A stretch of 64,000 nucleotides of DNA, from the NCBI GenBank assembly GCA_039881145.1, contig JAYKKI010000016.1:7775001-7839000 (forward strand), read 5' to 3'. The stretch comes from Druceiella hillmani (lineage: Eukaryota; Arthropoda; Insecta; Lepidoptera; Hepialidae). The position numbers and the translations under genes were made by a program. The notes below the pieces were generated by a model. The model saw nothing but the letters and a program-made list of their open reading frames with translations. It searched no databases and had not been told where the DNA came from. Of this stretch, positions 119-36,893 are shown one piece after another. Position 1 is the first letter of the stretch, and the number at the start of each line of letters is the position of its first letter.

Positions 119-270
119 ATTTGTTGTATTACAACATCTTCAGGTGGGATATTAACAAAGATGCTAATATCCCACCTGAAGATGTTGTAATACAACAAAA
201 CCTAGGTCGTGGTAAAGAAATTAAAGAAAGTAGAAATAATACTACATCACGTAGTTTCATTTAATTGTGT
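119..270 (+). repeat. Hammerhead palindrome repeat, copy 1 (left arm truncated)
   Basis: This is a fold-back repeat. A short left arm (about 119-161) is the reverse complement of the start of a longer right arm (162-270). The right arm has the family's ribozyme order: CCAC, CTGAAGA (176-182), a GTTG/CAAC stem, the core purines, CCTAGG, GTC and GTGG (ends at 212). The core here reads AAAA instead of GAAA, so this ribozyme should be dead. The left arm stops before the CCTAGG stem III, so it has no complete ribozyme. The right end is the shared CATTTAATTGTG. Family assignment rests on near identity to the copies at 7.6, 19.9 and 31.9 kb. Confidence 0.85.
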
Positions 271-396
271 ATATATAACTTCACAATTACACAACAAAAA
301 AATATGCGTTTTATCCAAAATCACACTCACCTCAGTCTACTGGTCCAATTGATGTGAAGGACACATACGGTATGAGCGTAAACGTTACATTAAATT

Positions 397-831
397 ATGC
401 CTTGGTGCATACTGGTGAGTATAGAAATAGTCGTAGCTATAACATTGTTAGTTTTTTTAAAAAATAATACATTTGTTTTTGTCGGTCTGAGAAACCAACG
501 AGCGGATGTAGGAAGATTAAGCGATTACTTACCTCTTTATTATTATGCATTAGTAATCTCTTGGATACCAATAAATATAAAAAAACTTGAATTATTTTAT
601 CCCAGATATCCCTTACTCATGGAATATTTCCATGAAATGTTTGGGAAAGTTTCAGAGGAGCTGACCAACTGCTATATAAAGAAAATAAACTTCGTAGCCC
701 GCATCACACACCCGCATAAATTCGATGTTTTATTTCCTTGTCCGATATTTACTACAAGATACAGCTTTCTGACCAAAAGGAACTTTTACAACGTTACGTT
801 CAAGGAACACGATTCAATCATACGCTGCTGA
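397..831 (+). CDS. Unassigned 144-codon ORF with N-terminal hydrophobic segment
   Basis: I do not recognise this protein. The ORF starts with ATG followed by Pro-Trp-Cys. Residues about 4-30 form a strongly hydrophobic stretch that could be a signal anchor. The remainder has a balanced composition (several Trp, Pro, His and Cys, charged residues spread throughout) rather than the Lys/Asn/Ile/Phe bias of chance ORFs in this A+T-rich DNA. It ends with TGA. A GTAATA donor-like site lies a few bases beyond the stop, but no partner exon was found. It could be a decayed exon, a piece of a mobile element or a chance ORF; the evidence is composition only. Confidence 0.22.
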   Translation: MPWCILVSIEIVVAITLLVFLKNNTFVFVGLRNQRADVGRLSDYLPLYYYALVISWIPINIKKLELFYPRYPLLMEYFHEMFGKVSEELTNCYIKKINFVARITHPHKFDVLFPCPIFTTRYSFLTKRNFYNVTFKEHDSIIRC

Positions 832-1130
832 ATATGCCCAGGTAATAACTGGAGACTTATAAGTTTACAAGGATTTTTCTGCTTAAATCTATCCAGCAGG
901 CTTACTCTTCACAACTTCAGACTCACAACTTCAAGAGAACAACTTGACAATTTATTAAATAAAAAAGAGCACGTTTTTAAAAGTTTACCTAATTCTCATA
1001 GTTTTTGAGATATTTACGGTATTTTCATATCTGTGAAAGTTATACCAGGCAATATATTTAGGTGGTGGAAAATAACGTTTATATTTATAAAATGTTAAAA
1101 AATACATTTAAATATTTATATGTATCTAAG

Positions 1131-1186
1131 TATGTACGGAATCCCGGTAGTGTGAGTTCTGTTCGTACTTGACAGGCTTTTATTTA
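1131..1186 (-). repeat. Fragment of CCGGCCAAGTGCGAG-type dispersed repeat
   Basis: The stretch runs TGTACGGAATCCCGG, a GTGAGTTCTGTTCGTACTTG core, then GACAGGC and T-rich sequence. Read on the minus strand it parallels a repeat I recall as common in Lepidoptera, which starts with CCGGCCAAGTGCGAGTC and continues to GGGTTCCGTACA. Better preserved relatives lie at 11.5 kb (minus) and 54.64 kb (plus). This copy is decayed and short, with no coding content. Confidence 0.5.
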
Positions 1187-2026
1187 TTTTAAGAAGTACG
1201 ATGTAGGTAAACGCTTTATTTATTGACTATTTTCTATCCTTCATTTTTCCTCGTCAGATTATTTTCATGGAACTCTGGAAAAGTTTGAAAGTAGTTTATT
1301 AACAACTACTTAAGAATAATAATATAAATAAATATATTCAGATAATATTTGTGTGATAGAAAAACCACACATTTTCCCTTGTTCGATGTTTATTTACAAT
1401 ATAGACGAAGAGTTTCTGATAAACATTGTAACAAACTAAATCTAAAAAAGTCAATTTCGACGATTTTTCACATGGATACTTTGCAATACATTTTTTTTTT
1501 AAATTATAAGGTATTAGGTAATCTAGAACTTTTGGGGTAATCTTAAAAAGTTGAACACCTAGACAGAAAAAAAGGATTTATGGTCTATTTACTTAGATTT
1601 TAAAACGTTACTTTTCTTTTTTAGTTCCATTGGAGGACACCAAAATTAAAATGTAAAATAAAATCACCGATTTGACTGTTCATCGTTCTAGTTTTTTGTC
1701 GCTATATTCAAACCTTTAACGGTCGATTTTAGTACAAAAATAATTCTAAATTTTCTTAACAAAAGTAATAAAATCATTAATAATATTAAAAAAAACAGTG
1801 AGCCGTCACGGAACGCCTGGCAGATGTGAAACATCGTGTTCGTACCAGTAATATGCATAAAAGACAAGATTATTACAGGAACTAAATATAGCATAATGAA
1901 AAAAAAAGTATTACGCATTTCTTACAGAAAATGGTGACTTTATTTAATAAACATTTATTTACAATTAATATAAAAATAATAAAGCACAGGTTATGTGTAC
2001 CGTAGTAAACAACAGCGTCGAACTGA
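1187..2026. other. No gene recognised
   Basis: A+T-rich sequence with scattered short ORFs of biased composition. I see no repeat family, splice-flanked exon or RNA gene here. Confidence 0.5.
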
Positions 2027-2190
2027 GTGAGGAGGAGGTCGCGTAGTCGGTTGCGCATGGCGATACGTCGCCGTACCGTACACTCTACTCCATATATACT
2101 GTATTTATACCTTAGTATAGCGTGGCCACCCGTCGCCACGGCAAACGTCGCCACGCCAACGATCCGGTTTATACCTGCGCCTATAAATTT
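2027..2190. other. Small CpG-rich patch
   Basis: This stretch is clearly richer in G+C and CpG than its surroundings. It contains repeated CGTCGCC words, a GGCGA-TACG-TCGCC mini-hairpin near 2058-2071, and closely spaced GTCGCCACGGC and GTCGCCACGCC copies near 2130-2155. A 66-codon plus-strand ORF crosses it, rich in Arg then Pro/Ala, but I do not recognise it. It may be an old mobile-element fragment or a short promoter-like island. Confidence 0.35.
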
Positions 2191-2530
2191 TTCACATCAA
2201 AAACAAAAATCTGCAAGTATAGCATAAAGGGATTTCGTATATATATTGTTCTTTCAATTTTAAAAAAATAATGAAAAACGTGTGAAAATAAAAAAATAGT
2301 TATGGTTGGTATTTATATAAACCGCAGGCACGATCACTCTTAAATACATTCAAATAAACCTTAATAAATTTTTTTACTTTTAAAATTCTTAATTAATGTT
2401 TAAACTAATTATAAATTTTAGAATTGAGTATTTCATCTCACATCTCAAGACGTCAAAAAACAAATACATGAATATGCACTACCATTTACTAAGGGGAAAC
2501 AAGTAGAATTAATACGAGCCATAAGCGAGC

Positions 2531-7000: not shown

Positions 7001-7644
7001 TGGCATAATTATAAAATATATAACTCTGATACAGTTAAACAGTTAAAAATTCAGAATATTTGTATGTGCATTTTAGAGTATGTACGTAGTATGTAGCTGG
7101 TTACATGAATCTCTAGTCTTTTCTTAAAAATTTATATGAGACAGATTTGAAGATATTGATGGAAATATCCCCAAAAATCCAGATACCGTCTATAATCCCC
7201 AAAAATATTTAAAGAATCCATGAACCATTTTCATGTAAAAATATTTAAATTGCAGCATGTAGTATGTTGATAGTACGGAGATTCCTTGTAAGCATACATG
7301 CATAATGTACATAGGTACATTCCAAAATGAAAATATAACATTAAATGGCAAGCTGATGATTATTTTTTTAAAATATACAAAAACTAATTTCGCGTTAATT
7401 AAAAGCCAAATAATTGAATTCGCTTGTAAAATGTAAAATATAAATATGAGTAAAAAATTAAAAGGTACAAGGTGTAGTTTTTACATGTAGGACCGGTCTA
7501 GTGCATGTTGGAAGACGCACAAAGTAGGGTCCCATAGTTGTCTAGATACCTTGAATTTTTTAACGCGAGTTAAATGTAATAATTTTACACAATTAAATGA
7601 AACTACGTGATCTAGTATTATTTCTACTTTCTTTAATTTCTTTA

Positions 7645-7685
7645 CCACGACCTAGGTTTCGTTGTATTACAACATCTTCAGGTGG
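7645..7685 (-). ncRNA. Hammerhead ribozyme, minus strand, intact core
   Basis: On the minus strand the order is CCAC (stem I), CTGAAGA, one extra T, GTTG-TAATA-CAAC (stem II), GAAA, CC-TA-GG (stem III with a two-base loop), T, C (cleavage after GTC), then GTGG (stem I). All invariant core positions of a type I hammerhead are present (CUGANGA, GAAA, NUH). Very short stem III and an extra base before stem II are traits I recall from Penelope-like element hammerheads, where dimers are thought to help cleavage. Self-cleavage is predicted, not shown. Confidence 0.7.
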
Positions 7686-7723
7686 GATATTAGCAAAGAT
7701 TCGCAAAGATCTTTGCTAATATC

Positions 7724-7764
7724 CCACCTGAAGATTTTGTAATACAACGAAACCTAGGTCGTGG
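7724..7764 (+). ncRNA. Hammerhead ribozyme, plus strand, weakened stem II
   Basis: Same order as its partner on the minus strand. CTGAAGA is at 7728-7734; GAAA, CCTAGG, GTC and GTGG follow to 7764. Stem II reads TTTTG against CAAC, one G lost compared with the family GTTG, so the stem is weaker though the catalytic core is intact. It diverges from the minus-strand ribozyme at 7645-7685. Confidence 0.6.
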
Positions 7765-9592
7765 TAAAGTAATTAAAGAAAGTAGAAATAATACTACATC
7801 ACGTTGTTTCATTTAATTGTGAATAATGAATTTCTACAAAATTAACGCTAAATATATTCAGTAATAATTTTACTTGAGGTATCTATTCAAATGCTAATAT
7901 CTAGAATTAGTTTTTAAATGTTTCAAGGCACCGGTTGAAAAATAAAATAATAGTGGGCAGGACGGGGTTCATATTTTATGACAATTTAACGCTTAATATA
8001 TTTCACAAATGGGCTAAAACATGAAAAATAATATCTAAGTAGAAATTCGCTTTTAATTGAAAGACCAATCGAACGACACCAAACTCGGTGAGCTAAAAAA
8101 TTGTGTTCTCCCCCCATTCGTATAATAAAAAATTACTTACTCTTTATTTGAAATAACTTTCTTAATTCAGGAATAATTATAACATTTTTTAAACGTCATA
8201 GACTTTTATCATAATTGAAAGAAAAAAAGAGCCTCCATCTGAAGCATCCGTTCGCAAAATTCAAAGAATATATTTCTAGAAGAGTAAAAATATGAAGCTG
8301 TGTCAGAGAGATGACTCTTACGAAGATCAGTATTTCTTGTTTCAATATGGGACCCTTAAAATTAACAACAAGTAAACGCTTTTTACATCGTCTTATTTAA
8401 ATTAGTGTTTATAACCCTGAAAAAAAAACAAAAAAATTACCTACGAAATACCCTGAAAGAAAAAAATTATATATTTTCAATACATTACACTCGAAGTTTT
8501 TTGTTTTCTAACTAGTTACATTTCTGATTAAATTTCACAAAAATTAGTCTTTCGTTTTATTAATAATAATTATTAGTTTTTTCTTTATTACAACTTATTA
8601 TACCAATTAATTTTTTTCATATCCCTTGCAAAAATTACATAACACTTTTTAGAGTTTCAGATTAAAATAGTTACAGTCAATTTGTTATGATAATGTGTTT
8701 AGTAGATATTCATATACAGCTATTTGAAAAGAAATTTTATCCATTATAACTTCAAATGAAGCCATTTTCAGTAGACAATATGTGTGGATTAAATAATATG
8801 GTAAGTAATCCAGAAACAGCTTTAACTTTCTGGTTACTTTTACGTTAACAAACGCATATTATGAATGCAAAAGTTTGGACAGACGAATATATAAATGGAT
8901 GTCTATTGCTCTGTAACAGCATAAATTCTAAATCGATTTGCTACAAAGATAGATTATAATTTCGATTAACAATACTTTAATATTACGAAATCTTGAGTAG
9001 TTCCTGAGGGATATCAGCCATTTGTATAATATTTGTTAGGTTCTTACTTAATCACAAACTATTTTGTATAGTGCAATTCTCTAAGTTTTCATTTTAGCAT
9101 GAATTTACTCGTAACGTGTAACCCGAACTCGACACGTATATTGCGAATCTGAGAGTGATGGTTCCAATGAAGTTGCGGGCAGCAACTTGCGTTGTTTCTA
9201 AAATATAAAAATATTGTTGTAAAGAATATAAGTTTTATTTCAAGGTCGTGATAAATTTAAATCATTTCATCAAATGGTTTCAAATTAGTTCTAAGAATAA
9301 CCTATGTGGCAAAATTATAATAGTGCAATAATAGTTTTGAAAAGATAGTAATATTCCAAAATTAGTTTCAATAGTATCTCTAAAGCAGTCTAGTATCCGA
9401 AAATACTCATCTTTTATTTGCTTTTAATATTATTTTTAATTATTATTGTTAATTCGTGGAAATTAAAGTTTTAAAATATTTACTTAAATAATCAGAAATG
9501 TTAATGAAGTTATTAACGAAAATACACCTGAAATATTACTGAGTATTGACCCACGGCACAACGATTTTGTGAGGTAAAAGAATTTTTTTTAA

Positions 9593-9740
9593 CAATCTTT
9601 GAATTGAGGTACAACGACTTCTTTGAAGAATCCTTGAATTGAGATACAACGACTTCTTTGAAGAATCTTTGAATTGAGGTACAACGACTTCTTTGAAGAA
9701 TCTTTGAATCGAGGTACAACAACTTAGTTGAAGAATCTTT
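9593..9740 (+). repeat. Minisatellite, 35-bp unit, four copies
   Basis: The unit contains GAATCTTTGAATTGAGG followed by TACAACGACTTCTTTGAA. Four successive copies carry a few substitutions, and the last is the most diverged (CGAGG, AACTTAGTTG). The array is open on the minus strand because 35-bp shifts cycle the frame, so the ORF there is a by-product. Confidence 0.95.
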
Positions 9741-9974
9741 TACAGCAGTTTGTAGTCTACTAAACCAAAGTAGAAATATTAAGATTATTTACAGGTGTAA
9801 ACACAGATTTATAAAAACACTTGTGTGGTAAAAATGGAAAACAAGTGAGAACCAAGATTCTTCTTCCTCTCATCTCGCGCAGCAGAGAGTTATAAAAATG
9901 CTTAAGTGATTATTTTGAAAATATGTCTATAAAATCGGAAGAGTAGAAGGATTTTTCACCGTTATGTTTGAAAA

Positions 9975-10366
9975 ATTCTGGTCTTTTTTATTTTATAAAA
10001 TTCTTCTTATCTTATTTAAAATAATTCTGGTCTTTTTCATTTTATAACATTCTTCTTATTTTATTTAAAATAATTCTGGTCTTTTTCATTTTATAACATT
10101 CTTCTTATTTTATTTAAAATAATTCTGGTCTTTTTCATTTTATAAAATTCTCCTTATTTTATTTAAAATAATTCTGGTCTTTTTCATTTTATAACATTCT
10201 TCTTATTTTATTTAAAATAATTCTGGTCTTTTTCATTTTATAAAATTCTTTTTATTTTATTTAAAATAATTCTGGTTTTTTCATTTTATAAAATTCTTTT
10301 TAATTTATTTAAAATAATTCTGGTCTTTTTCATTTTATAAAATTCTTCTTATTTTATTTAAAATAA
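9975..10366 (+). repeat. Minisatellite, 49-bp unit, eight copies
   Basis: The unit runs ATTCTGGTCTTTTTCATTTT, ATAACATTCTTCTTATTTTA, TTTAAAATA. Starts fall at 9975, 10024, 10073, 10122, 10171, 10220, 10269 and 10317. Copies differ by single bases, mainly AAAATT against AACATT in the middle, with a one-base deletion in the seventh copy. The first unit lies where the left arm of the large inverted duplication stops; a single related ATTCTGGTC-type word survives at 21.69 kb on the opposite strand. Confidence 0.95.
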
Positions 10367-11502
10367 AACATATATCTCGTAGTCACGAAAGGTAATAAGA
10401 GTGTTTGACTCAAACGAATTCATTCTTATAAAAATATAGATTTGCTGATATTTCAACTGAATACACTTTCACGTTACTTACAAAAACATAATAATTCATC
10501 AAATATAAAGTTTATTCTCATGAAAATGTTTCAGCAAATATTATTCATTTTGTGTACGGTAATATCGTTCAGTGACAATTATGCTAAATGCAGCGTGTAA
10601 TTTAAAAACTAGTAGTGAACTTGTATTAACATCACGATTGGTGTTTGAAAAAACATTTCTGAATGATGACAAATTCGTTTAGTTAGTTTAAGTAACATAG
10701 TATTTTTCAATGTTTCAAGGTATCTAATGATATGTGAATGTTGTTAAATTTCAATACTTAAAACCACGCTTTGATTTAATCTATCGTGCATCTACATATA
10801 AATGGAAAAATAAATAAGAAAATATGATTCATGCATTTACTGTCGAGAAAAATAATTTAGATACTAACGATATATTTAAAGTTGATTAAATGACAGAGGG
10901 CGGAATTTTCTAATTACAACATAAAATATCTTTTATCATACGTCACACATTGACGACAACAGATTTTTGAAAACTTATTTTAGAAAAACTTATTTTGATA
11001 ACCAAACCTAAATTCTTTTATTTTTAAGACTATGATAATTTTTCCTACGCAATTTTTAGATACGTTTTAGAACGCAATATCTCAAACATATTTTCTTTTT
11101 ATCCACGATTCTAAACTATTTCGAATTCATTTCTATACTATTTTTTTTACAATATAATTATGTACTTTGCCACTTTTCTCTAAAGTTCAAGCTTACGTTT
11201 AATAAGATTTCATTTCTGAAAAATAAAGGTATTTCATTTTTATTTCCATAAATAATAATGAAGTTTTTGAAGCAGAAAATGTTATGAAAAATTTATAATT
11301 TAAATGTTTTTATGGATGGTTTTTGTCAAAAATGTGTACACATTGGAGCAATCAGCGCATACACAAATTTAAGCAATTATATGTGAGGTTTTATACTTTT
11401 TATGTGCATTTATGTGCATTTGAAAAATGTACCGGGAAACATACTTACGTGATAAATAATAATATTAATATCTGTAAATAGTTTAATGGAAATACATAAA
11501 AG
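10367..11502. other. No gene recognised
   Basis: A+T-rich sequence between the minisatellite and a short dispersed repeat. I found no coding frame, RNA gene or repeat relation within the window. Confidence 0.5.
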
Positions 11503-12019: not shown

Positions 12020-12336
12020 TATCTATGATAAGTTCCATAGAGGTCTCTGTTAGCTTTCGTATAAAACGTCAAAAGATTTTGAGAGGTTAGATTTGTTTTT
12101 GATTCAGTATTTTATTGTAAAAAGCTTACCTGTCGAATTCAGATGATAAACCCGAAATAAGGGCTTTAAATGTTGTTTCTTTTATCCACAGGTGAGTAAA
12201 TGTTTAGTTTATAAGATAATGTTACTAGCAAATTGTAGAAGGAACGTTTTACAAGTAAATAAATCTTTTATCCACAGAAACGCAATTACGTCTTTATTTC
12301 AACAAGTTCGAAACAGAATCCAATAAAAACATTATA
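12020..12336 (+). repeat. 5' LTR (shared part) with 86-bp extra block
   Basis: Begins TATCTATGATAAGTTCCATAG and ends CAATAAAAACATTATA. Apart from one substitution (CTCTG here, CGCTG in the 3' copy) and the extra block at 12,192-12,277 it equals the 3' LTR at 16,635-16,865. AATAAA close to the end is a candidate polyadenylation signal. The 37 bases upstream, between the TA tract and 12,020, have no match in front of the 3' LTR. Confidence 0.9.
12192..12277 (+). other. Intron-like block in the 5' LTR, absent from the 3' LTR
   Basis: The block starts GTGAGTAAATG and ends TCTTTTATCCACAG, an excellent donor and acceptor pair. The 3' LTR joins the flanks exactly at these points. The same outcome can arise without splicing, because the 14-mer TCTTTTATCCACAG occurs just before the block (12,178-12,191) and at its end (12,264-12,277); deletion between the direct repeats in the 3' LTR would look identical. 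Confidence 0.6.
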
Positions 12337-12370
12337 AAACAACATTTTCTGCATAAATTTCGAGAGAATA

Positions 12371-13497
12371 ATGGATAAGTTAAGATTTGAATTTGCTGTG
12401 AAGACAGCATCCGAGAGAAAAACCAACATTTTATGCATAACCTCAATTACCACAACTAGTGGTCAGATCTATGGAATACCACCGGAATATCAACCAGTGA
12501 ATGAACACAAAGCAATTATGAGTACTACAAACTATGCCAAAATAAAAAAACACATTGCAAAGAAGACACCAAACAAGGAAAATTTGGATAACTTTGACAG
12601 ATGAGATATAGGAAGCATATATGGATGAGGCTCAAAACTTGCAGTTTAATGATGTTTATCTAGAAGAAATAATAGAAACTAAATGTAATCCAGAGTCTAA
12701 ATCTAGTGACTCAAACAACTCTTTGGAAAAACTGTTAGAAAAATTACTCGAAGAAAAAGAACAAAAATCAGAAACTCAAAATCTAGGCAAGATAGCGAAG
12801 AATTTTATGATAGAAAAGTTCACAAGTAAAACCACTAATGCCCACCAGTGGATTAATAATTTTTATAAAGAATGTGAACGTTTCAAAGTCAACGAGGATA
12901 AAAAGAAAATAGAGATTTTGAAAAATTTTATGGAGTCGTCAAGTGTACATTGGTACGACTGTATGCTAATAAAATACACAGTAGAATCAGAGTGGAACAA
13001 ATGGGAGAAATGCTTTTCTGAGACATTTGCAAATAAAGGTTGGTCATCCATGAGATATGCTCTAGGTTTTAAATACCAAGGAGGTTCGTTACTCGAGTAC
13101 CTCTAAAGAAAGAGAAATTATTACTGGAAGTTAGGAAGAACATTGATACTGGGACTCTTATTAATCTCATAGCATTCGGCTTGCCTAATTTTGTTGCCGA
13201 TAATATCGACAGAGAAACTTTGCAACAAACAAAAGATTTGTATAATGAAATAGGAAAACTAGAACACCTCGTTGGGAAACTAAGTATGAAAAAAAAGGAT
13301 TTACAAATTCTGACCTTAAACAAAAAAAAATTGAAGAAAGAAAACCATGCCAAATTTGTGCCAAGGAAAAAAAAGGGAAACGCTATCACCCAGAGGAGAA
13401 TTGCTGGTTTAAAGACAGAACTCAGAAACCAATAGTGAGAATAGTAAATAACTCCGAAATAGAAACAGAACTGAATTACAAGGATCAAAAAAACTAG
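12371..13497 (+). pseudogene. gag: gag of the Ty3/gypsy element, broken
   Basis: Gag is spread over several frames. A first open stretch begins at ATG 12,371 and stops at 12,604. A second (12,621-13,106) holds the capsid-like part, with Trp-rich words such as HQWINNFYKECERF and VHWYDCM. The frame then shifts near 13,105 (capsid C-terminus, TLINLIAFGLPNF) and again near 13,290 in an A-rich run. The last frame carries a zinc knuckle C-x2-C-x9-H-x4-C (CQIC ... YHPEENC, about 13,348-13,404), as expected of nucleocapsid, and ends with TAG at 13,495-13,497. Gag would form the particle and bind the RNA; this copy cannot make it. Confidence 0.75.
13488..13494 (+). promoter_or_regulatory. -1 ribosomal frameshift heptamer A AAA AAC
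   Basis: In the nucleocapsid frame the codons read CAA AAA AAC TAG. The heptamer A AAA AAC fits the X XXY YYZ rule, sits directly before the gag stop, and a -1 slip enters the frame that begins L-E-V-P-P and holds the protease. This is the usual way gypsy-type elements make Gag-Pol. No downstream pseudoknot was worked out. Confidence 0.65.
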
Positions 13498-15460
13498 AGG
13501 TGCCACCATTAATAAAAATAAATTTACTATTGAATGACACTGTGAAAGTAACTGGAATTTATGATTCAGGTTCAAATGTGTCATTAATTAATGCTAAATT
13601 ATTAAATATACGGAATGAAGAAAAAAGTACAGATAATACACAAATAGTAAATTTAAAGACTTTTAATGGTGAGAAAAAAACTAAAGGTATGGTTACATTA
13701 AAAATTAAAATATATAATGTAGAACAAAACATGGATATTTTTGTCATAGACAAAGAAAATTTTAAATATGATTTCCTAATTGGTTTAGATTGTATAAGAA
13801 AATTCAAGCTTATTCAAAACGAAGACTTAAAAATAACACAAAAAGGTCAGAAAGAAGAGCTTAATATAAAAAACGATACAAATGTCAACATTCCTGATGT
13901 ACTAGGAGACAAAACTGAACCAAGATTAGGAAGCCCTAGAAGGGAGAAGGTGAAAAACGAAATAAACTTCAATGAACATATTAAAACTGATAAATTTGAA
14001 AAGATCGTTAATGATCTAGATAAACAACAACAATTAGAGATTGACGAGCTCATAGACAAATTTACGACTGTCTTTGCTAAGGATAAATATGATGTCGGCA
14101 CTGTACGAGATTATGAAGCTCATATTGACCTGATGGTGGATAAATACTGCTGCAAACGTCCATACAGATGTATAGCTGAAGATAGAAGAGAGATAGAAAA
14201 ACAAATATCAAAATGATTAGAGAAAAATTTGATTGAGGAATCATATAGCCCGTTTGCTGCCCCAGTAACTCTGGCTTATAAAAAGGAAGATGAACGAAAA
14301 ACAAGACTTTGTATAGATTTCAGGGAATTGAACAAGATAATCGTCCCACAATCACAGCCATTTCCATTGATTGAAGATCTAATGACAAAAACAGTAAACT
14401 GTAAGTATTGCTCAGCGTTTGATATTAATTCAGCGTTTTGGTCAATTCCATTGAAAGTACAGGATAGGTACAAAATGACCTTTGTTACTCAGGAAGGTCA
14501 TTTTCAAAGGACATGCTTACCATTTGGACTAAAAACTGCTCCAGCCATTTTTCAAAGGATAATGACTAACATCATAAGAAAGAATAAGCACTCTCTGATT
14601 TTGCAGTAAGTTTCATAGATGATATACTCATTTATTCAAAAACCTTTGAAGAACATATATCACATATATCACGGTTACTGGAGGCAATACAAACGGAAGG
14701 GTTTAGACTAAAACTTACCAAGTGCATATTTGCAAGTAGTTATGCCAAGTATTTAGGCCACATAATAGAAAACAATTCAGTGAGGCCTCTAAAAGATTAT
14801 TTGGTAGCAGTAAAAGACTTTCCAATACCAGAAACAAGGAAAAATGTACGACAATTCCTAGGAAAAGTAAATTTTCATCACAAGTTTGTGCCACACAGTG
14901 CTATCATCTTGGACCCGTTACACAATTTGTTAAAGAAAGATGTGAAATTCGTGTGGACTGAAGAATGTCAAAAATCATTTGATAAAATGAAAACACTACT
15001 GTGCTCTGTGCCAATTTTGAAAATTTGTGATCCAGAATTACCAATAAACATTTATACAGACGCAAGTGCAAAAGAAACAGGCGCAGTATTAAAACAACCT
15101 GATAAAAATGGAGACAATAATCCAATTGCTTATTTTTCAAAAAAATTAACAGATACACAATAAAAGAAGCTATAAAATACTGGCAGCATTTGCTTATGGG
15201 AAAGGAGTTTACGGTGTATTCTGATCATAAACCACTAGAAAACTTGAATATTAAAGCAAGAACTGATGAGGAGCTCGGAGACCTAACATATTATTTATCC
15301 CAATACAATTTCAAAATTAAATATAATCCTGGAAAAACAAATATAGAGGCAGATTGTTTGAGCAGAAATCCAGTCCTAGATCCAAGTGAAAATAATGATG
15401 ATGATGCTTTGAAAGTGGTAAATTTAATAACTATAGAAGAAATAAAAATAGATCAAAATT
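13494..15460 (+). pseudogene. pol: pol: protease, reverse transcriptase, RNase H, broken
   Basis: Protease: active site Y-DSGS (about 13,560-13,575) and a later FLIGLD motif. Reverse transcriptase: RLCIDFRELNK (about 14,310), FDINSAFW (about 14,418), LPFGLKTAPA (about 14,519) and the catalytic FIDDILIYS (14,612-14,638). RNase H: IYTDASAKETGAVL (about 15,050), then YSDHKPLENL (about 15,218). Lesions: an in-frame TGA at 14,214-14,216, a frameshift near 14,587 just before the catalytic FIDD, and another near 15,160. The catalytic residues themselves are kept. Confidence 0.85.
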
Positions 15461-16590
15461 TAAATCAAGAAATACAAAAAGATAAAAATGGACTTATACT
15501 AAGAGATGAAATATACTACAAGAAAAATAAAGGAAGAAACAAAATTATACTATCAGAAGGATTAAGCAAAACATTGATAAAAAAAGTACACATTACTTTT
15601 TGCCACCTAGGAACAATACAAATGATAAATAAATCAACACTATACTATTCAGCGAAGAATATCATAGCAAAAATTAAACAGACTTGCGAAGAATGTGAAA
15701 TATGCATTAAAAATAAAACAAGGAGAAAACCGAAATATGGATTATTGTCATTTAGGACCAGCAAGACACCCATTTGAAATTGTATCAATTGATACAATTG
15801 GTGGTTTTGGGGGATCTCGGTCAACAAAAAAGTACCTGCATCTTTTAGTTGATCATTTCACTAGGTATGCTATATCTTGACGTCAAAAAACCAAAGCTCT
15901 AACGATTTTATCAAAACTTATTCAACAAGTGACACAAAGTCATAAAATTGATATGATATTAACGGACCAATATCCTGGTATAAACTCTAAATAATTTAAG
16001 GGATTTCTGAAAGATAACAGTATAAGAATAATTTTTACTGCGGTGGACACTCCTTTTTCAAATGGGCTTAACGAAAGATTGAACCAAATTTTAGTTAATA
16101 AAATAATATGCCAAATAAATGAAAGCAAAAAAAAAGATTGCATGGACAACAATAGCACAGAATTGTGTAAAGAAATAGAATGAAACAGAACACACTGTTA
16201 CCAAATTTGCACCAAAATACCTATTGGAAGGAGAAAATGTAAATATTCTTCCATCAGAACTAAAAACAAGATGTTCAAATGAAGATCTGAGAAGAGATAG
16301 AAAATTAGCATATTTAAATGCAATTAAATCTCATGAGTATAATAAGAAGAGATATGACCTATCAAGGATCCCTCCTTTACTGGGAATATGACTTTAAAAA
16401 AGGAGGTAGAGTCTATGTGGAAAACGGTAATCGACTAAATAGGAAGAAAACAGATGAACTGAGAATACGTACCTACGAGATCTTGAAAAAAAATTTCTAA
16501 TACAATTTATGAAGTAGATGCCGATAACAAGAAGGAAGAATCAAATTTGTTTCATGTTACAAAACTTACTCCATTGTCGATTGATAAAGG
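15461..16590 (+). pseudogene. pol: pol: integrase with GPY/F-like tail, broken
   Basis: The N-terminal zinc-binding region shows H...H then CEECEIC (about 15,587-15,715). The core shows the first Asp in VSIDTIGG, the second in ILTDQYPG and the Glu in SNGLNERLNQ (to about 16,085), an intact DDE triad. YLLEG and then RKKTDEL-RI-RTYEILKK mark the C-terminal GPY/F-type domain, with Gly-Pro replaced by Arg-Thr. Lesions: a frameshift near 15,770, TGA after YAIS (15,878-15,880), TAA in NSK-FKG (about 15,992), further breaks near 16,180 and a frameshift near 16,490. The frame runs close to the 3' LTR; no env follows. Confidence 0.8.
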
Positions 16591-16634
16591 AACAATTACG
16601 TGCAATCACACTTGTAATTGTTCTTCTCTCGGAG

Positions 16635-16859
16635 TATCTATGATAAGTTCCATAGAGGTCGCTGTTAGCTTTCGTATAAAACGTCAAAAGATTTTGAGAG
16701 GTTAGATTTGTTTTTGATTCAGTATTTTATTGTAAAAAGCTTACCTGTCGAATTCAGATGATAAACCCGAAATAAGGGCTTTAAATGTTGTTTCTTTTAT
16801 CCACAGAAACGCAATTACGTCTTTATTTCAACAAGTTCGAAACAGAATCCAATAAAAAC

Positions 16860-19020: not shown

Positions 19021-19171
19021 TAAATATATTTTGTGTTAATTTTGTAGAAATTCATTATTAAAAATTAAATTAAACTACGTGATGTAGTATTATTTCTACT
19101 TTCTTTAAGTTCTTTACCACGACCGAAGTTTCGTTGTATTCCAGCGTCTTCAGGTGGGCTATTAGCAAAGA
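19021..19171 (-). repeat. Hammerhead palindrome repeat, copy 3 (one arm)
   Basis: Only the left arm is present, but with the full outer tail (AAATATATT, TTAATTTTGTAGAAATTC, AAATTAAAT). On the minus strand the ribozyme core at 19,117-19,157 keeps CTGAAGA and GAAA. Stem III reads CTTCGG instead of CCTAGG, and stem II has several changes (CGCTGG...). The opposite arm is missing after TATTAGCAAAG. This shows that the tail belongs to the family on either side. Confidence 0.8.
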
Positions 19172-19903
19172 ATTTTTTTTTATAATATACTTTTCTAAAC
19201 ATGTTATAATTTGCGATAAACATATTGTAGAAAATTCTGAAAATGCAATTATAATTTATTTACATATTGAAAAATTTATTCACAGGACCATGAATCTTTT
19301 CAGGTAATTTTTTTACGTTCTTTATCGACAAAACTTTTATGGTAACATTCTCACTTCCAAATACGCGTTTTACATATAATGTATATTGTCATATAAAAAA
19401 GTACATCTCTAAAGATATTTACACTATAAATTATTGGACCACAAAGGTCGTCGAGGATTTCCTGAAAAATAACATCAATAGGATGAAAAGTTTTTTTTTA
19501 TTTTTAAAGAAGGTGCACTGGTGGCATATTACAAAAAATTAAAAGGTTGCAGTGTTTTCAAAATTAACCTTATGTCTTGTATTTAATTACTGGGTCGAAA
19601 TTAATCAGTAGGTCTTAATAATTAAGTCTCATATTTAACTTACTTGTTAGGAATAATACCTCAAATAAAACAGCCTAAATTTTTGCAGATACTAATTGCT
19701 CTAATATATCATACTTTCTTGACCCAAGGAAGTAGCCTACCATAAAATAAAAAGTTTATTTTAATTTTTATTTTAATTATTTTTTCATAAATTTTCCAAT
19801 CGTTTTTAGCCTCATTTATTATTTTTTTAATATATATAGTAACACAAATAAAGTGTAAATATTTTGAGAATAGTCGCGTAGTGCATTATTCAATAATAAA
19901 AAA
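19172..19903. other. No gene recognised
   Basis: A+T-rich sequence. A 67-codon plus-strand ORF at 19,339-19,542 has no recognised features. Confidence 0.45.
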
Positions 19904-20160
19904 GAATTAAGTGAAACTACGTTATGTAGTATTATTTCTACTTTCTTTAATTTCTTTACCACGACCTAGGTTTCGTTGTATTACAACATCTTCAGGTGGG
20001 ATATTAGCAAAGATCATATCCCACCTGAAGATGTTGTAACACAACAAAACCTAGGTCGTGGTAAAGAAATTAAAGAAAGTAGAAATAATACTACATCACG
20101 TAGTTTCATTTAATTGTGAATAATGAATTTCTACAAAATTAACGCCAAATATATTCAATA
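19904..20160. repeat. Hammerhead palindrome repeat, copy 4 (both arms)
   Basis: Left arm 19,904-20,013, right arm from about 20,014 with the outer tail to about 20,157. The flanks share a near-identical word: AATAATAAAAAAGAAT just left, AATAAATAAAAAAGAAT just right. This is a plausible target-site duplication of about 13-17 bp. The right-arm ribozyme core (20,021-20,061) has AAAA in place of GAAA; the left-arm core is intact. Confidence 0.88.
19959..19999 (-). ncRNA. Hammerhead ribozyme, minus strand, intact core
   Basis: Identical in every core and stem element to the minus-strand ribozyme at 7645-7685: CCAC, CTGAAGA, T, GTTG-TAATA-CAAC, GAAA, CCTAGG, TC, GTGG. The complementary arm next to it has lost the invariant G. 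Confidence 0.7.
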
Positions 20161-21128
20161 AATAAAAAAGAATCTAAAAATGTGTTCCAAATACTGAAGA
20201 ATAGTAAAATTAAAACTATATGTTACAAACATTGCGTCAAAACAATTTAAATGCTCCGTTATGATGAATGTATCTAAAAATCTAATAAAAAAGCTATTAC
20301 GCCAGTATATAAGGCTAGTTTTGAGTCTTAAAACCGAATGAATAAAGTTTTTAACTGCAGTTAAACATTTTAATTAGATTTTTATTTTAAATTTGGGCTG
20401 AAAAATTAGTTCTCTTTATGATCCATCGTATTATACCAATAAAATGTCTTTATCAATATGCAACATCTAAAAAGTATAAATTAAATATTATACAAGTATA
20501 ATTACTTGAACTTAAACTAAAACGAACGGAACGAAACGGATAAAGGTGTTCCGAGCTTAGTCATTTAATTTTATTAACATGTTGTAAGTTTTTGAATTAT
20601 CTGTTTTGTTATATAAGCGCCTTTAATTTTATTTTATTACTCCCTGAAGTGCCTTTATATTTATGTAGATGAAACGTAAAAAGTCAAGATAGTGCTTTAA
20701 TCGTCGAGATTTATGGGACTTATATCTCATAAAAGGCCGTAAAAATTTAAGAAAAAAATAAATTCATAAAATTATCGAAGAGAATTTACGATCATTAAGA
20801 TTTCATTTCAAACACCGCTACTGGTGTTAACACGTGTCTGCAATTAGTTGGTATGTTAGAAAAATGTGATTATTTATCAATGCACCTTTATACGTCGGTT
20901 ATTATTATTGAAAGTCAAAGATTTTATTTCGAAAGTTCTATTTTTCAAAGATATTGAAATTTTTAAACTATTCTGTTAAAATTACCGTTGGAAAGCATTT
21001 TCGTTAATTTTTTTAATTAACAATAAAATTGCTCTGAGTCACATACTATTATTGCTTTGTATGGCTATGGGGACAAATATATAGAAGTTTTATTAAAGTT
21101 TCTGTTATAATTGATTAAGACTACAGAT
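20161..21128. other. No gene recognised
   Basis: A+T-rich DNA without identifiable coding or repeat structure. Confidence 0.45.
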
Positions 21129-29350: not shown

Positions 29351-29875
29351 TACATATAGTAAGTAAACAATCCGTGAAAAAAATCTGCCGTAAATTACGA
29401 AATTAAAATACACGTTCAATTCTCTTCCGCAGCGTACGCATATCTATGTGATTCTTATACTTCAAAGATTGCGCGAAAATAATCCATAACAAATTTTATC
29501 GCAGTGCGCGCAGAGCCTTAGTCAATATATAAGCTCATTGTATGTTTTGATCCATAGAAGGCAATGTCACAGTCCGTATTTAGTTCTAGTTGCAGGTGCA
29601 AGCAGTCTGCACTATATGAGCTCATATACTGCATACTTGTTGTTTATTTTATACAATCGCTTAAGTATGCTTTTAATAAACAATTTTAATAAGTCAAGAA
29701 CTTATCTCTGAAAAAATTAAGTATTCGAGTACATTCTTAACCTCTTCATAAGCATAGCAACTTTATGCAGAACGAGGGTAGAAGACGTTTCATAATAGAT
29801 TTGTTAATCTATAAAAAAGTATCGTTTCATATTTGGTATTGTATAAAATTTATTGAAAGGTTAGAAAAGTAATGT

Positions 29876-30745
29876 AAATTACGTCCACGTGTTCCTTCAC
29901 GTTACAAAACCATTATTTTGTGAAGTAATACGTTGAGGTAATTTACGTTCTCTAGGTATATCACCGTCGTGTCAACCTGCAGACTAACCTGCTTTAATAA
30001 ATCCGACAACTCACAGGGATGTTCTATCCTTAGGTACAGAGTAAAGATTATTTCAATTAAGATTTTCAAAGTAATATAAATTACGTCCACGTGTTACTTC
30101 GCACTACAAAATTATTATTTTGCGAAGTAATACGTTGATGTAATTTACGCTTTCTAGGCAAATCACCTTCGTGTCAACCTGTAGACCGACCTGTTTTGAC
30201 AAATCCGACAACTCACAGGGATGTTCTACTCAGGTATAGAGTCAAGTTTATTTCAATTAAGATTTCTAAAGTAATATAAATTACGTCCACGTGTTACTTC
30301 GCACTACAAAATTATTATTTTGCGAAGTAATACGTTGAGGTAATTTACATTCTCTAGGTAAATCACCGTCATGTCAACCTGCCGACCAACCTGTTTTGAT
30401 AAATCCGACAACTCACAGAGATGTTTTAAATTTAAGTATAGAGTAAAGTTTATTTCAGTTAAGATTTCCAAAGTAACGTAAATTACCTTCGCGTGTTAGT
30501 TTATTTCAAATAAGATTTCCAAAGTAACGTAAATTACGTTCACGTGTTACTTTATACTACAAAATTATTATGTTGCAAAGTAATACGTTGATATAATTTA
30601 CATTCTCTAGGTAAATCACTAGTTACGTCAACCTGCAGACCGACCTGTTTTGACAAATCCGACAACTCACATGGATGTTCTACACTTAGGTATAGAGTAC
30701 AGTTTGTATCGATTAAGATTTTCGACGAAGAATTATTTGGCAACC
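29876..30745 (+). repeat. Satellite-like array, about 201-bp unit
   Basis: Starts of the word AATTACGTCCACGTGTTAC recur at about 29,878, 30,080 and 30,280, with diverged forms at about 30,481 and 30,535. So there are four full units plus a partial duplication of about 55 bp between the third and fourth. Each unit holds a hairpin: ACGTGTTACTTCGCA pairs with TGCGAAGTAATACGT around an A+T-rich loop. Each also contains CCGACAACTCACAGGGATG. Minus-strand ORFs of about 62 codons in the units are shared by homology and have no known domain. Confidence 0.92.
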
Positions 30746-31049: not shown

Positions 31050-31127
<78 letters not shown>

Positions 31128-31470: not shown

Positions 31471-31889
31471 AAAAATATAACATACCTTCCATGTGCACAT
31501 AGAGTCGCATCATTCATAGGTAACATTTTGACATAGTTAAAAAATAGTAGCGCCAGTGATTAGTAGAATGTTTCAATTTTAATAAAAAAAAATTACTATT
31601 CTTTTAAATAACATTGCGCGTCGCTGAGATCATCCAACGCATCTACGTTAATTTGAATCTCACACTACTTACTACAAAATTCTTTACGCCAATATAAGGA
31701 AAGCCAAAATAGAAAAGAGCTATGAATTTGTCTGAGTTAAAAATGGTAACATTTTTATGCTCGTAAAATAGCGGATGCAAAGTGTTTAATAATAAAAATA
31801 AAAAAGGTGTTCTTAAATTGGGACTATTTCTGTTTATGTTTGTAACCATTATAAATATTCCATACCATTTTTTTACAGGTCTCCATATT
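31471..31889. other. No gene recognised
   Basis: A+T-rich sequence with a 68-codon minus-strand ORF of no recognised family. Confidence 0.4.
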
Positions 31890-32164
31890 CATAATTAAAT
31901 GCAACTACGTGATGTAGTATTATTTCTACTTTCTTTAATTTCTTTACCTCGACCTAGGTTTTGTTGTATTACAACATCTTCAGGTGGGCTATTAGCAAAG
32001 ATTTCAAAGACAATTTTTGCTAATAGCCCACCTGAAGATGTTGTAATACAACGAAACCTAGGTCGTGATAAAGAAATTAAAGAAAGTAGAAATAATACTA
32101 CATCATGTAGTTTCATTTAATTGTGAACAATGATTTTCTACAAAATTAACGTCAAATATATACA
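31890..32164. repeat. Hammerhead palindrome repeat, copy 5 (both arms)
   Basis: Left arm 31,890-32,010, right arm 32,014-32,122, then the family tail ACAATGATTTTCTACAAAATT to about 32,164. Because the arms are mirror images, both strands hold nearly the same 73-codon ORF. That ORF is not conserved in the truncated copies, so I read it as a by-product. The left-arm core has AAAA in place of GAAA and a CTC instead of CAC in stem I; the right-arm core is intact. Confidence 0.9.
32028..32068 (+). ncRNA. Hammerhead ribozyme, plus strand, intact core
   Basis: CCAC, CTGAAGA (32,032-32,038), T, GTTG-TAATA-CAAC, GAAA, CCTAGG, TC, then GTGA. The core is complete; stem I loses its last pair (GTGA instead of GTGG). 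Confidence 0.65.
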
Positions 32165-34588
32165 ATATGTTTCCATATTTTTAATGGTATTGTTTTGTTT
32201 GTTGGCCTCAATGAGCATGCGCCAAATCTTGCTTCTAAACAGTAATAGTCTACAATATCGTGTAAATTATGAAATGTGTTCATTATTCATAAGATTAGGC
32301 TCTTACGATGACTTGAAATGAATTGCCAGTTTATTATCAAAATTGTAGCGGGATTAGAAATACATTGAATTAATCATATCTAAATATATTGGCAAATAAA
32401 TATTCTCAGTGCAGTCGATCCCCAAGTAGATTTAACTTTTAATAAATATGGAATCCATTTTAATAATTTACAGAAAATGTGTACAGGAAAAGTGTTAGCT
32501 CGAAGTATACTATATAGATGACTACTATATATCTTCAATTACCTGTTAACGTCAGGAATTGCATTCCGTTAGTTACACGCACATTTCAAATAACACCTAT
32601 TAACATTAGTACATTACTTTCATGACTTTTAAACAATATATGTAAAATTATATGGATATAATCTTAGACCTAGTTCTTATTAACATGGGATGCATGATTA
32701 CTGCAGCTGGCACACTATTAAATGAAGGTCGTAACCATCCTGACTTCGCTTCTACTATTACATATCTTACTGTCATAATACTACCCGTTAGATAAAAACA
32801 AAAAATATAATTTCTCTAAGGTCGACTATGAGCCAATAATTAAAAGAATAAATAAAATAGACTGGGATAAGGAATTAAGGGAACTTTACTACATTAATTT
32901 GTAACATATTTTATTTAAAGATAAAGATAAAATTAAGCCGCTTTTATACGAAAGAGAAGTGGCTACATCATTTGTAGGAGAAAATTTAATTAAAAAGTAA
33001 ATGATATTAAAGAAAATAAGAATATTGACGAAAATATTTAAATGAAAAAGATGATAATGAAAATTATAATAGCTATAATTAAAAGGAAAAACAATAATAG
33101 CTTATTGGAAGATAACGATGATGATTTTACCTGAAAAACAAATAATTAAAATTATACGTTTTATAGTTGGTATAACAAATATAATTAGGTATAACGATAA
33201 TTGTATGGTTTAAGTCAATGCATTTAATATTTACTAGATTTGTTTGAATTTTTTTTATTGAAAATACTTTAATTGAAATAATAAAAGAAAATTTAAAAAA
33301 AATAGTAAGCTGAAGGCTTTGTCATAGTTTAGATAACGCACACGGAGTCATTATTATTTTAAATACTGTTATCGAACATTTTCTATATTTTTTATTCTAC
33401 TTCGAAGTAACGTAAAAATGCAGTTTACATAAAGACTAAAAATTGCTTAATTTATCATCTTAGTCCAGACTTTAACTCTGGCACACCTGAGTTCATGAGT
33501 TATTTTTTTTCTAATATTACTTAGAATATTATTTTTTTTTCTCCTGGTTAATATATGATTTCAAGCGATCGGAATTCGAAACTATTACCGACCGTCTTGT
33601 GCATGAAGCAACGTCACTTAAAAGATCCAATTTTACATCCTTAGGGAATTCAATATATTTAAATGGTATTCGTTATTTCATCTACACATTTATAAAACAG
33701 AACATTTCTTGATCCATATCAGCGATCTCTTCATTTATATGTAAATGAGAGCTATCTAGCGGCTTGCAGGTGCAATTCTACAATTTATTATTAACGTGTC
33801 AATCTATTTTGCGAAAAGCTAATGTCAACAGTTAGCAATAGATGGCGTATGCAAATAAATAATTACTAAAATTTTCAAATTCATTACTTTATCTTAAAAA
33901 TTAATATTACTCGGAAAGTGCATAATCTTTACTATTCTAAGATAATTTCATTTCGTTGTCTCGAGTACTTATTTGCTGTGAAATTTATTTTTAGATACCA
34001 ATCTTGCATAATTTTATATACAAACTCTTACATAATTTTTTTTTATTTAAGCAATTATTAGTGAGGTCTATATAATACATATCGGAATAATTAATGGGAA
34101 AAGGGGTATTTCGTAAAAGTATGTTTTAGTTATTGTTACTATGAATATTGGTAGTATTTTTTCGAGATCGTATTAGGTCTAACATATTTGTTTTTGTTTG
34201 AAATTAACAATAATTAAAAATTTGTCAGTTGCTAATAATTTTTTAAGATTTAGCTTTTTAAACCCTAGATGTAAACTAAAGTTCAAATAATATTTTTTGT
34301 CATTACCACTTTTCGTCTCACTTCACTCTTACACGACGGCGGAAATCAATACAAACAAAAACTATTTAATGTGTATTTCATTTATTTTTAGATTTTTTTA
34401 AACCATATAAGGGGTTTTGTCGTATCGAATGTTAAGGAGGGATAATTAACAATATTGAAAATATTCAATGAAAATCAAATTTTGCTGAATCAAAAACTAC
34501 TACATAGAAAATTAAGTAAAAAAGAATCGAAATTATACGAAAGAGATAATTTCACCATTTTAATTATTGATATTAATATACTATATCT
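32165..34588. other. No gene recognised
   Basis: A+T-rich sequence. Words such as GAGCTATCTAGCGGCTTG and CAATAGATGGCG near 33,750-33,850 recall non-autonomous insect elements, but no boundary could be set. Confidence 0.4.
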
Positions 34589-34911
34589 CATGGACCATCA
34601 AAAATCTGATGCAACACATCCAAACACTTTTGTCTTGCTAAATATTAATAACAATTCCAATAAAAGTTACTACTACATGAACATAGGAATCACATGCAAT
34701 GATACCCCATGCTATATACCCCGTGGATTATCAAAAACTTGATGCAACACATCGAAACACTTTTGTTTTGCTAAATGTTAATAATAATTACTACTTCATG
34801 AACCTAGGAATCACATACAACGATACCCCATGAACGATCAAAAACATGATGCAACATATCCAAATATTTTTGTCTTGCTAAATATTAATAATAATTCCTA
34901 TAATAATTGCT
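34589..34911 (+). repeat. Tandem array A, three units of about 90-135 bp
   Basis: Each unit has ATCAAAAAC/TCTGATGCAACACATC, CACTTTTGTCTTGCTAAAT, ATTAATAATAATT, CATGAACATAGGAATCAC and ATACCCCATG. Units start near 34,590, 34,724 and 34,840. The last half of the third unit forms the start of the next array. A 95-codon ORF (34,455-34,742) is partly repeat-derived. Confidence 0.85.
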
Positions 34912-35893
34912 ACTTCATTAACATAGGAACCACAAACAATGAAATGTACACAAATTGTTACTTCCAATAGAATCGCCGCAACGAATAATTACATAGTTCA
35001 AACATTTCAAATATTCCAATGAATTTAGTTTATCCTCTCTTCAATATTTACGCGTGCATAAAAATGATTTAAAGTTTTTTAATTAATAATTTATTCAAGA
35101 AAGACAATTATAATTTACAATTATACTGTTATATATGCATTATTATGCGATCATTAACATATACTTCATTAACATAGGAACCACAAACAATGAAATGTAC
35201 ACAAATTTTTACTTCCAATAGAATCGCCGCAACGAATAATTACATAGTTCAAACATTTCAAATATTCCAATGAATTTAGTTTATCCTCTCTTCAATATTT
35301 ACGCGTGCATAAAAATGATTTAAAGTTTTTTAATTAATAATTTATTCAAGAAAGACAATTATAATTTACAATTATACTGTTATATATGCATTATTATGCG
35401 ATCATTAACATATACTTCATTAACATAGGAACCACAAACAATGAAATGTACACAAATTTTTACTTCCAATAGAATCGCCGCAACGAATAATTACATAGTT
35501 CAAACATTTCAAATATTCCAATGAATTTAGTTTATCCTCTCTTCAATATTTACGCGTGCATAAAAATGATTTAAAGTTTTTTAATTAATGATTTATTCAA
35601 GAAAGACAAGTGTAATTTACAATTATACTGTTATATATGCATTATTATGCAATCATTAACATAGGAACCACAAACAATGAAATGTACACAAATTGTTACT
35701 TCCAATAGAATCGCCGCAACGAATAATTACATAGTTCAAACATTTCAAATATTCCAATGAATTTAGTTTATCCTCTCTTCAATATTTACAAGTGCATAAA
35801 AATTATTTAAGGTTTTTTAATTAATGATTTATTCAAGAAAGACAAGTGTAATTTACAAGTATACTGTTATATGTGCATTATTATGCGATCATC
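34912..35893 (+). repeat. Tandem array B, four units of 251 bp
   Basis: TACTTCATTAACATAGGAAC starts at 34,911, 35,162 and 35,413. The fourth unit (35,652 on) lacks about 15 bp at its start. Units contain AATAGAATCGCCGCAACG, TTTAGTTTATCCTCTC and TACGCGTGCATAAAAATG. Copies one to three are almost identical; the fourth has more changes (ACAAGTGCAT). Confidence 0.95.
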
Positions 35894-36740
35894 TAATATA
35901 ATATCAAGTAGGTTGGTACACAAAGAAAAACACAAGAAAAGTTTTGTCTAACTTGAAATCAATAATAATTTGTGCACGTCATTATGACTATTCGAGAAAT
36001 AAATAAAACAACCAAACCAAGACATTAAAGAAGGCTAAGTTTTAAATCCATTGTTAATGGCGTGTATCTGAGTGAACAATAATAATCTAAGAAATAAACT
36101 TCAGAATTAAAATTTCCAATCGAATAAACTAACGAATAAAAATATGAAAACGTTTGTTTTCTAAAAAAAACTATTTACTTTCGTGCGATTACTCAATTAA
36201 CTACTGAGTGACTAATGCAGCATATGTAACAATTGTGTCTAAAATAAAAAAAACAAGCAAACAATTAAATACAGCAATAATTTTTTTTCATATCTTACGT
36301 TCAAGGTTTATCAAATCATTACATCACTATCCAAATAAACAAGAAAAATTCAATGAATTATTATACCGATATCGATTAAGTACATATTCCAACACAGAGA
36401 AATAAATTTGTCCATCTTGTTAAAAATAATAATTTAATTAACTACCTATGTCATTATTGTTTTTTTTATCAACATGTTGACTATCAAAACATACAAATAT
36501 TATATTGTCCATAATACTCTACCCAAGCAAAAAATTAAGTACCTAAGAATTTGAAAATGGCTTGAGAACGTCATTGAATTATCCACAGTCAACTTATCCA
36601 TTTCTTTTGGTGACACTGTTGTAACTTTTTCATTAAAATCCTAAAGCGTACATTTTGTAATTAATTAAAATTATTTATAGTGCCAAAATATGGTGTGGTG
36701 TGTCGCATAAAAGCATTTTAATATTACATAAAAACAATAT
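35894..36740. other. No gene recognised
   Basis: A+T-rich sequence. A 65-codon plus-strand ORF at 36,208-36,405 is not recognised. Confidence 0.4.
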
Positions 36741-36893
36741 TGAATATATTTAGCGTTAATTTTGTAAAAATTCATTATTAATAATTAAATGAAATCACGT
36801 GATGTAGTATTGTTCCTACTTTATTTAATTTCTTTACTACGACCTAGGTTCCTAGGTTGTAATACAACATCTTCAGGTGGGCTACTAGCAAGA
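36741..36893 (-). repeat. Hammerhead palindrome repeat, copy 6 (one arm, core destroyed)
   Basis: Starts with the outer tail (TGAATATATTTAGCG, TTAATTTTGTAAAAATTC) and runs through TTTAATTTCTTTACTACG and CCTAGGTT to CTTCAGGTGGGCTACTAGC. A duplicated CCTAGG replaces the GAAA segment, so no ribozyme is possible. The other arm is absent. The segmental duplication begins about 27 bp downstream. Confidence 0.8.

Follow-up and report, generated by a model that had tools for sequence, protein, structure and literature searches.

Palindromic hammerhead repeats in the genome of Druceiella hillmani as probable products of single Penelope-like insertions

We analysed a 64,000-nt stretch of the Druceiella hillmani genome (Lepidoptera, Hepialidae; contig JAYKKI010000016.1, positions 7,775,001 to 7,839,000), called the window here, which contains several members of a family of short palindromes whose arms carry back-to-back hammerhead ribozyme motifs. 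Our reading, to which we give a probability of about 0.7, is that a single insertion of a Penelope-like element (PLE) gave rise to each palindrome, by two-strand priming on one short PLE RNA and joining of the two complementary DNA (cDNA) ends. The features behind this reading were taken from the sequence itself, namely the anatomy of the copies, their target duplications, the asymmetry of their tails, their variable centres, the arm ends at the predicted ribozyme site, and the concordance between arms. The family likely belongs to the PLEs, and, judged on anatomy alone, the palindromes appear to work like PLE insertions.

The first-pass annotation had quoted one hammerhead motif from arms at 0.1, 7.6, 19.1, 19.9, 31.9 and 36.8 kb and described six palindromes. 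Looking within the window for arms related to that motif, we located all six places, with ten ribozyme-like arms in total. Four of the six are palindromes, three of them complete (7.6, 19.9 and 31.9 kb) and one degraded and tailless (0.1 kb), whereas the copies at 19.1 and 36.8 kb have one arm each. The window copies match one another at 86-94% identity across 150-278 bp. Their features are as follows; in the 19.9 kb copy, automatic longest-repeat searches chose other repeats than the one given.

119..285, plus strand: degraded palindromic copy at 0.1 kb, left arm truncated (120-160), right arm 162-282, tail absent.
7576..7588: left target-site duplication of the 7.6 kb palindrome, GTAATAATTTTAC.
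7589..7860, plus strand: 7.6 kb palindromic insertion with a tailless antisense arm, a 10-nt centre and a sense arm with tail, and a 13-bp target duplication at its borders.
7639..7686, minus strand: hammerhead motif of the 7.6 kb left arm, exact, with predicted cleavage before GTGG.
7723..7770, plus strand: hammerhead motif of the 7.6 kb right arm, with one change in the first stem II pair; RF00163 at 16.5 bits, below cut-off.
7822..7860, plus strand: tail of the 7.6 kb copy, found on one arm only and delimited by the two inferred sites at which reverse transcription starts.
7861..7873: right target-site duplication of the 7.6 kb palindrome, GTAATAATTTTAC.
19022..19178, minus strand: 19.1 kb single-arm insertion without inverted arm; target duplication TTTATAATATACT at 19009-19021 and 19179-19191, by eye.
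19908..20161, plus strand: 19.9 kb palindromic insertion; target duplication ATAAAAAAGAAT at 19896-19907 and 20162-20173, by eye.
31890..32171, plus strand: 31.9 kb palindromic insertion; target duplication TCCATATT at 31882-31889 and 32172-32179.
36729..36893, minus strand: 36.8 kb single-arm copy, ribozyme core broken.

The family extends across the genome (181 contigs, 2.586 Gb). A genome-wide query with the palindrome at 7.6 kb yielded 2,997 candidates, of which 40 were scored. Exact palindrome centres between two full arms (full/full) number 11,536, compared with 2 in a reversed control; because of this excess and the identity among window copies, chance is excluded. Twenty 10-kb stretches, taken at 5.0 Mb of 20 contigs and not as a formal random draw, hold 11 family loci in 200 kb, which extrapolates with wide error to about 140,000 loci genome-wide.

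We compared 36 palindromes, three of them in the window, six in the 10-kb stretches and 27 taken from the other 39 sequences that best matched the window copy, each oriented with its longer arm on the right. In every one, the left antisense arm ends at model position 110-126 and the right sense arm at 149-157. One arm is tailed and the other tailless in all 36, as well as in 16 of 17 ribozyme-cut and 19 of 20 mixed copies described below; one ribozyme-cut copy (L058) has a tail on neither arm. In the sense direction, copying starts at about TTTAATTGTG in the tailless arm and about AAATATATTCAATA in the tailed arm, with about 40 nt between them. The palindromes thus show two PLE characteristics, a tail of about 30-40 nt that only one of the two inverted pseudo-long terminal repeats (pLTRs) carries and a short target duplication in an A+T-rich target. 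Exact flanking repeats of at least 12 bp occur in 22 of the 36 palindromes (mode 12) and in 1 of 701 shuffled pairings, and the repeats of at least 10 bp, present in 25 copies, are 85% A+T, compared with 68-77% per 2 kb of the window. The inner ends of both arms fall at a single position, TCTTTGC, preceded by up to a few bases of TCGAA. The centres between them are 0-24 nt long, with two exceptions of 59 and 260 nt, and nearly always differ between copies; five of the 18 fillers of at least 7 nt match their own arms or flanks better than shuffled fillers do (P <= 0.022). Half-truncated copies retain the palindrome plan, and among the 20 fetched, the tailed arm is short in 12 and the tailless arm in seven, while one (L081) is unclear.

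Type I hammerheads are defined by CUGANGA, GAAA and a UH cleavage triplet between three stems, with stem I open. The consensus of the 72 arms of the 36 palindromes conforms to all of these core rules, as the first-pass annotation had held for every arm, but individual copies fall short of it. CTGAAGA is kept by all ten window arms, CTGAAGA, GAAAC and GTCGTGG occur together in four (7.6 left, 7.6 right, 19.1 and 19.9 left), and the quoted motif is exact in only two (7.6 left and 19.9 left). CAAAA replaces CGAAA in the 0.1 right, 19.9 right and 31.9 left arms, and the GAAA box is absent from the 36.8 kb copy. At the Rfam gathering threshold there is no match in the window. The 7.6 kb right arm alone (83 nt) scores 16.5 bits against Hammerhead_1 (RF00163; cut-off 34) in the expected register, with E = 0.084 over 4227 families. 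The lack of a covariance hit, named beforehand as a sign against a hammerhead, therefore holds at the Rfam cut-off only, whereas arm ends at GTGG in the genome, described below, argue for the predicted cleavage. Folding of four single-strand pieces of 44-46 nt gave z-scores between -0.38 and -1.37 and structures mostly other than the hammerhead, which neither supports nor excludes a ribozyme. In a transcript of the whole palindrome, the motif would face its own complement. A plain hammerhead consensus scan missed real sites because its fixed spacing is unsuited, and returned one unrelated near-match; the exact motif had 0 matches in viral_contigs and genome_contigs. At a lax Rfam threshold, the palindrome at 7606-7803 matches chiefly microRNA precursor families, all below their own cut-offs, a result that we would expect from any long hairpin. 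If transcribed, such palindromes might enter small-RNA pathways or mislead microRNA annotation.

Because the predicted hammerhead cut is GTC|GTGG, cDNA running off a cleaved RNA should end at the G of GTGG. We searched the genome for palindromes with both arms reaching GTGG and found 335 places, compared with 18 in the reversed control; here and below, ends were counted in the first 50 or 100 places listed from each search. Among the 50 of 335 matches listed, 33 have the exact GTGG end in both arms, nine in one and eight in none, giving 75 exact ends in 100 arms; a few of these exact ends are probably arms with a mutated next base. Extrapolation (335 x 33/50) yields about 221 centres with both arms cut (cut/cut), indicating that ribozyme-cut copies are a small minority of the family. 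Since this pattern is blind to ends short of GTGG, we slid it outwards, which gave 277 places (control 106). Among the 100 arm ends of the 50 places listed, 45 lie at offset 0, six at +1, four at +2, 32 at +3, which is the predicted site, none at +4, four at +5 and nine beyond; judging by the control, the ends at offset 0 are mostly background. We fetched 20 GTGG places, consisting of 19 of the 33 both-arm cases and L051, in which one arm is three bases longer. Seventeen of them are two-armed insertions with both sides starting at model position 1 or 2, and ten of these 17 lie between repeats of 10-16 bp. The structure of L051 is more complex, and two places (L053 and L064) have no profile match. 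These end points argue for cleavage of a minimal PLE-type hammerhead in vivo at its predicted site. We also considered that reverse transcription might pause there or that a cellular nuclease might make the cut, for which one could cite the sub-threshold Rfam score, the weak fold of the isolated motif, and the fact that the ends were read from genomic sequence. A pause caused by stem I, however, would be expected 3' of that stem and not at its first base, the peak in the listed places is one base wide, and the end is usually common to both arms (33 of 50 listed), as would hold for a true RNA 5' end. We regard this explanation as unlikely.

If the templates of the two arms were independent, centres joining a cut arm to a full arm should number 2 x sqrt(221 x 11,536), or about 3,200. 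The mixed cut/full pattern occurs at 2,418 places (control 0). Among the 100 rows listed of these, checked by eye, the shorter arm has an exact GTGG end in three, corresponding to about 73 cut/full centres genome-wide, with wide error given so few rows; of the other listed rows, one is ambiguous, and four, from three places, carry a mutated base but run on. In a profile check of the three rows with the exact end (L072, L088 and L079), two shorter arms fell at the site, while the third ended a few bases upstream of it, overlapping the other arm. Because cut arms so rarely pair with full arms (about 73 against about 3,200 expected), both arms were probably copied from the same RNA molecule. At variant site 71, the cut copies comprise 14 A/A, three T/T and one A/T, with the same base in both arms in 17 of 18; by this site, they are not a separate subfamily.

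The same variants bear on whether the palindrome is made anew at each insertion or copies itself. At site 71, 34 of the 36 palindromes have an identical base in both arms and none is an A/T mixture, and at the eight variable sites tested, arm concordance reaches P < 0.02 in four. Copies that share a variant have different centres. No left- or right-specific consensus differences were found in the arm body (72 arms), and the flagged ones are confined to the tail region, where left arms run into flanking DNA. Since the centres differ, the arms share source variants, and the arm body lacks left/right differences, each palindrome seems to be made anew as the product of one insertion and not to be a self-copying unit. 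The proposal of a stand-alone palindromic ribozyme family is accordingly not supported, and the diverging ribozymes on both strands would be a by-product of insertion. The rest of the annotation's description, a type I hammerhead in a non-coding, head-to-head arrangement of Penelope-type plan, we judge to be right. A palindrome that is itself mobile, being either a dimeric retroelement or a foldback element and copied in full from its hairpin RNA or DNA, would account for the very high copy number, for source variants common to both arms, and for the identical centre, by eye, of 14 of 50 full/full places listed. It would also account for right arms being closer to each other (4.2%) than left arms are to right (6.6%), an effect that the tail and the choice of query may cause. 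Against it, the centres of the 36 copies are nearly all unlike, even among copies with the same variant, the consensus arm body is the same on left and right, and single-arm, half-truncated and ribozyme-cut versions share the ends and the tail. We consider a mobile palindrome improbable. A T found only in the right arm at sites 61 and 96 (six copies each) was examined as an inherited arm-specific variant and judged an effect of copy selection, because the query alone has both together, the backgrounds and fillers differ, and the copies match the query arm.

Single insertion from PLE RNA could proceed as follows. A PLE endonuclease would first cut A+T-rich DNA with a stagger of about 12 bp. One short RNA, corresponding to the 5' portion of a PLE transcript and including its minimal hammerhead, would then be reverse transcribed from primers provided by both target strands. 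One strand would prime at the distal site, giving the tailed arm, and the other about 40 nt further upstream, giving the tailless arm. Both cDNAs would run off the 5' end of the RNA, and their 3' ends would be joined via microhomology or filler, leaving a head-to-head inverted repeat between target duplications. Where the ribozyme had cut before copying, both arms would start at GTGG and not at the uncut 5' end. In this sequence of events, the PLE enzyme, the single RNA for both arms, the end joining and the ribozyme, as opposed to another nuclease, as the cutter are what we infer. A more specific version, to which we assign odds just short of even, is that two reverse transcriptases copy one RNA in convoy about 40 nt apart, each primed from one strand of the break, with the hammerhead acting beforehand in vivo and fixing the 5' end of some templates. 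That the tail is so strictly confined to one arm agrees with two enzymes starting at different points of one RNA. If true, a two-enzyme convoy would explain together why PLEs have a tail, why their pLTRs are inverted and why the target is duplicated, and head-to-head pairs would be the normal primary product of PLE integration.

Self-priming, by snap-back or on an antisense template, has been proposed for rotifer PLEs (PMC3846280), and it too predicts head-to-head repeats with concordant arm variants and inner ends. Snap-back should, however, copy the tail and the target, whereas the second arm is tailless in nearly every scored copy, with one stop site. Zero-length joints and filler misfit a hairpin loop, truncation hits either arm (12 tailed, seven tailless, one unclear), and ends at the ribozyme site of the sense strand indicate a sense RNA template. 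Self-priming therefore appears to us a poor candidate, about on a par with the mobile palindrome. A miniature inverted-repeat transposable element (MITE) or foldback DNA transposon with a chance hammerhead-like stretch would also be short, palindromic, abundant and found in A+T-rich targets, but such elements are defined by two equal ends and a target duplication of fixed length, whereas here the length of the flanking repeats varies, a tail is present at one end, truncation proceeds from the centre and single-arm copies occur, making this origin highly improbable; nor was a transposase, which had been named as counter-evidence, seen between such ends in the copies fetched.

Several points weigh against a single PLE insertion from one RNA. 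By eye, no PLE reverse transcriptase or endonuclease is present among 36 open frames of at least 110 aa in 264 kb, and, as the first-pass annotation had noted for the window, no Penelope reverse transcriptase is present there among frames of at least 120 aa. Twenty-seven of the 36 palindromes were selected by similarity to one window copy, and four of the eight variable sites show no significant concordance. Arm divergence is 5.7% within a copy and 6.6% between left and right arms of different copies (0 of 2000 permutations as low; left/left 6.3%, right/right 4.2%). The case for copying from one RNA therefore relies on the variants and ends that the two arms have in common, and the arms might also be alike because they stem from a common source locus. 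The identical centre listed in 14 of 50 full/full places (of 11,536) is one joint with a 2-nt AT overlap; annealing of self-complementary cDNA ends could produce it repeatedly, but these centres could also include copies of a palindromic source. At nine of the 50 GTGG places listed, one GTGG arm faces a longer one, in some perhaps through a mutated next base, and one of the 36 palindromes (L014) joins an arm cut at the site to a full arm. In place of one RNA, it is possible that a common source or activity period with uniform processing shaped both arms. Finally, in work on the anole Poseidon PLE, the start site did not differ between strands, ribozyme mutants still inserted, the ribozyme cut only with the protein, and its site coincided with neither the start nor the end of any RNA-seq read (PMC11167929).

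The window also holds other repeats. By eye from its frames, a young-looking long terminal repeat retrotransposon of Gypsy type occupies 12020-16806, with 172-bp direct repeats (12020-12191 and 16635-16806; 99.4% identical) and broken polyprotein frames at 12612-15777. A 3.26-kb direct duplication (36920-40154 and 42054-45306; 95.8% identity) begins right beside the 36.8 kb single-arm copy, with weaker repeats around it (40406-41163 with 46211-46978; 41441-42054 with 48535-49176). Tandem repeats at 9570-10460, 29843-30740 and 34580-35900 have spacings of about 35, 49, 200-250 and 250 bp. Outside the window, L010 and L015 contain long minus-strand frames that by eye resemble mariner/Tc-type transposase.

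Minimal PLE-type hammerheads have an extra base before stem II. The present motif resembles them in this base, in its very short stem III and in its association with pLTRs, and differs from earlier work on them in that cleavage is here read from genomic insertions. According to a review, the in vivo activity and role of these hammerheads are "still a mystery" (PMC7761336). Among PLEs, the Pen families of Adineta vaga begin on their 5' side with an inverted pLTR, and one member of the inverted pair carries a 31-bp tail; they also have target duplications of 8-10 bp and head-to-head copies with palindromes at the junction (PMC3846280). That paper favours self-priming on an antisense template and says that alternatives need experiments. 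The D. hillmani palindromes share the inverted pLTR, the tail on one arm, the target duplications and the head-to-head order. Unlike those of the Pen families, their arms enclose no coding body in the copies examined here; they also reach a very high copy number and have a fixed inner end and a ribozyme-cut subclass. The anole Poseidon protein cleaves and extends both target strands in vitro, with two adjacent internal reverse-transcription starts that define the tail, a hammerhead near these starts and A+T-rich targets (PMC11167929). The hammerhead, the paired starts defining the tail and the A+T-rich targets recur here, whereas genomic palindromes are not described in the main text of that paper, and in D. 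hillmani the start site differs between arms in nearly every scored copy. Non-LTR retrozymes of animals are likewise short and non-coding with type I hammerheads, but they form tandem repeats and are expressed as circles (PMC7229834); they are thought to be mobilised by PLEs (PMC7761336). In contrast, the present family is dispersed, mostly as head-to-head pairs with target duplications, and at the DNA level the tandem repeats that would give circular RNA are missing, with no tandem copies within 264 kb. In the open-licence literature searched on Penelope elements and hammerheads, the present finding is not described at the level of titles and opening lines of abstracts. PLE integration, the inverted tailed pLTRs and in vivo cutting by minimal hammerheads are treated as open in PMC3846280, PMC11167929 and PMC7761336. 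The D. hillmani genome preserves thousands of individual insertions as short sequences complete with two ends, two arms and a joint, from which the start sites, the 5' ends of templates, cutting by the ribozyme and the joining step can be studied statistically, and the palindromes provide genomic evidence on the origin of inverted pLTRs.

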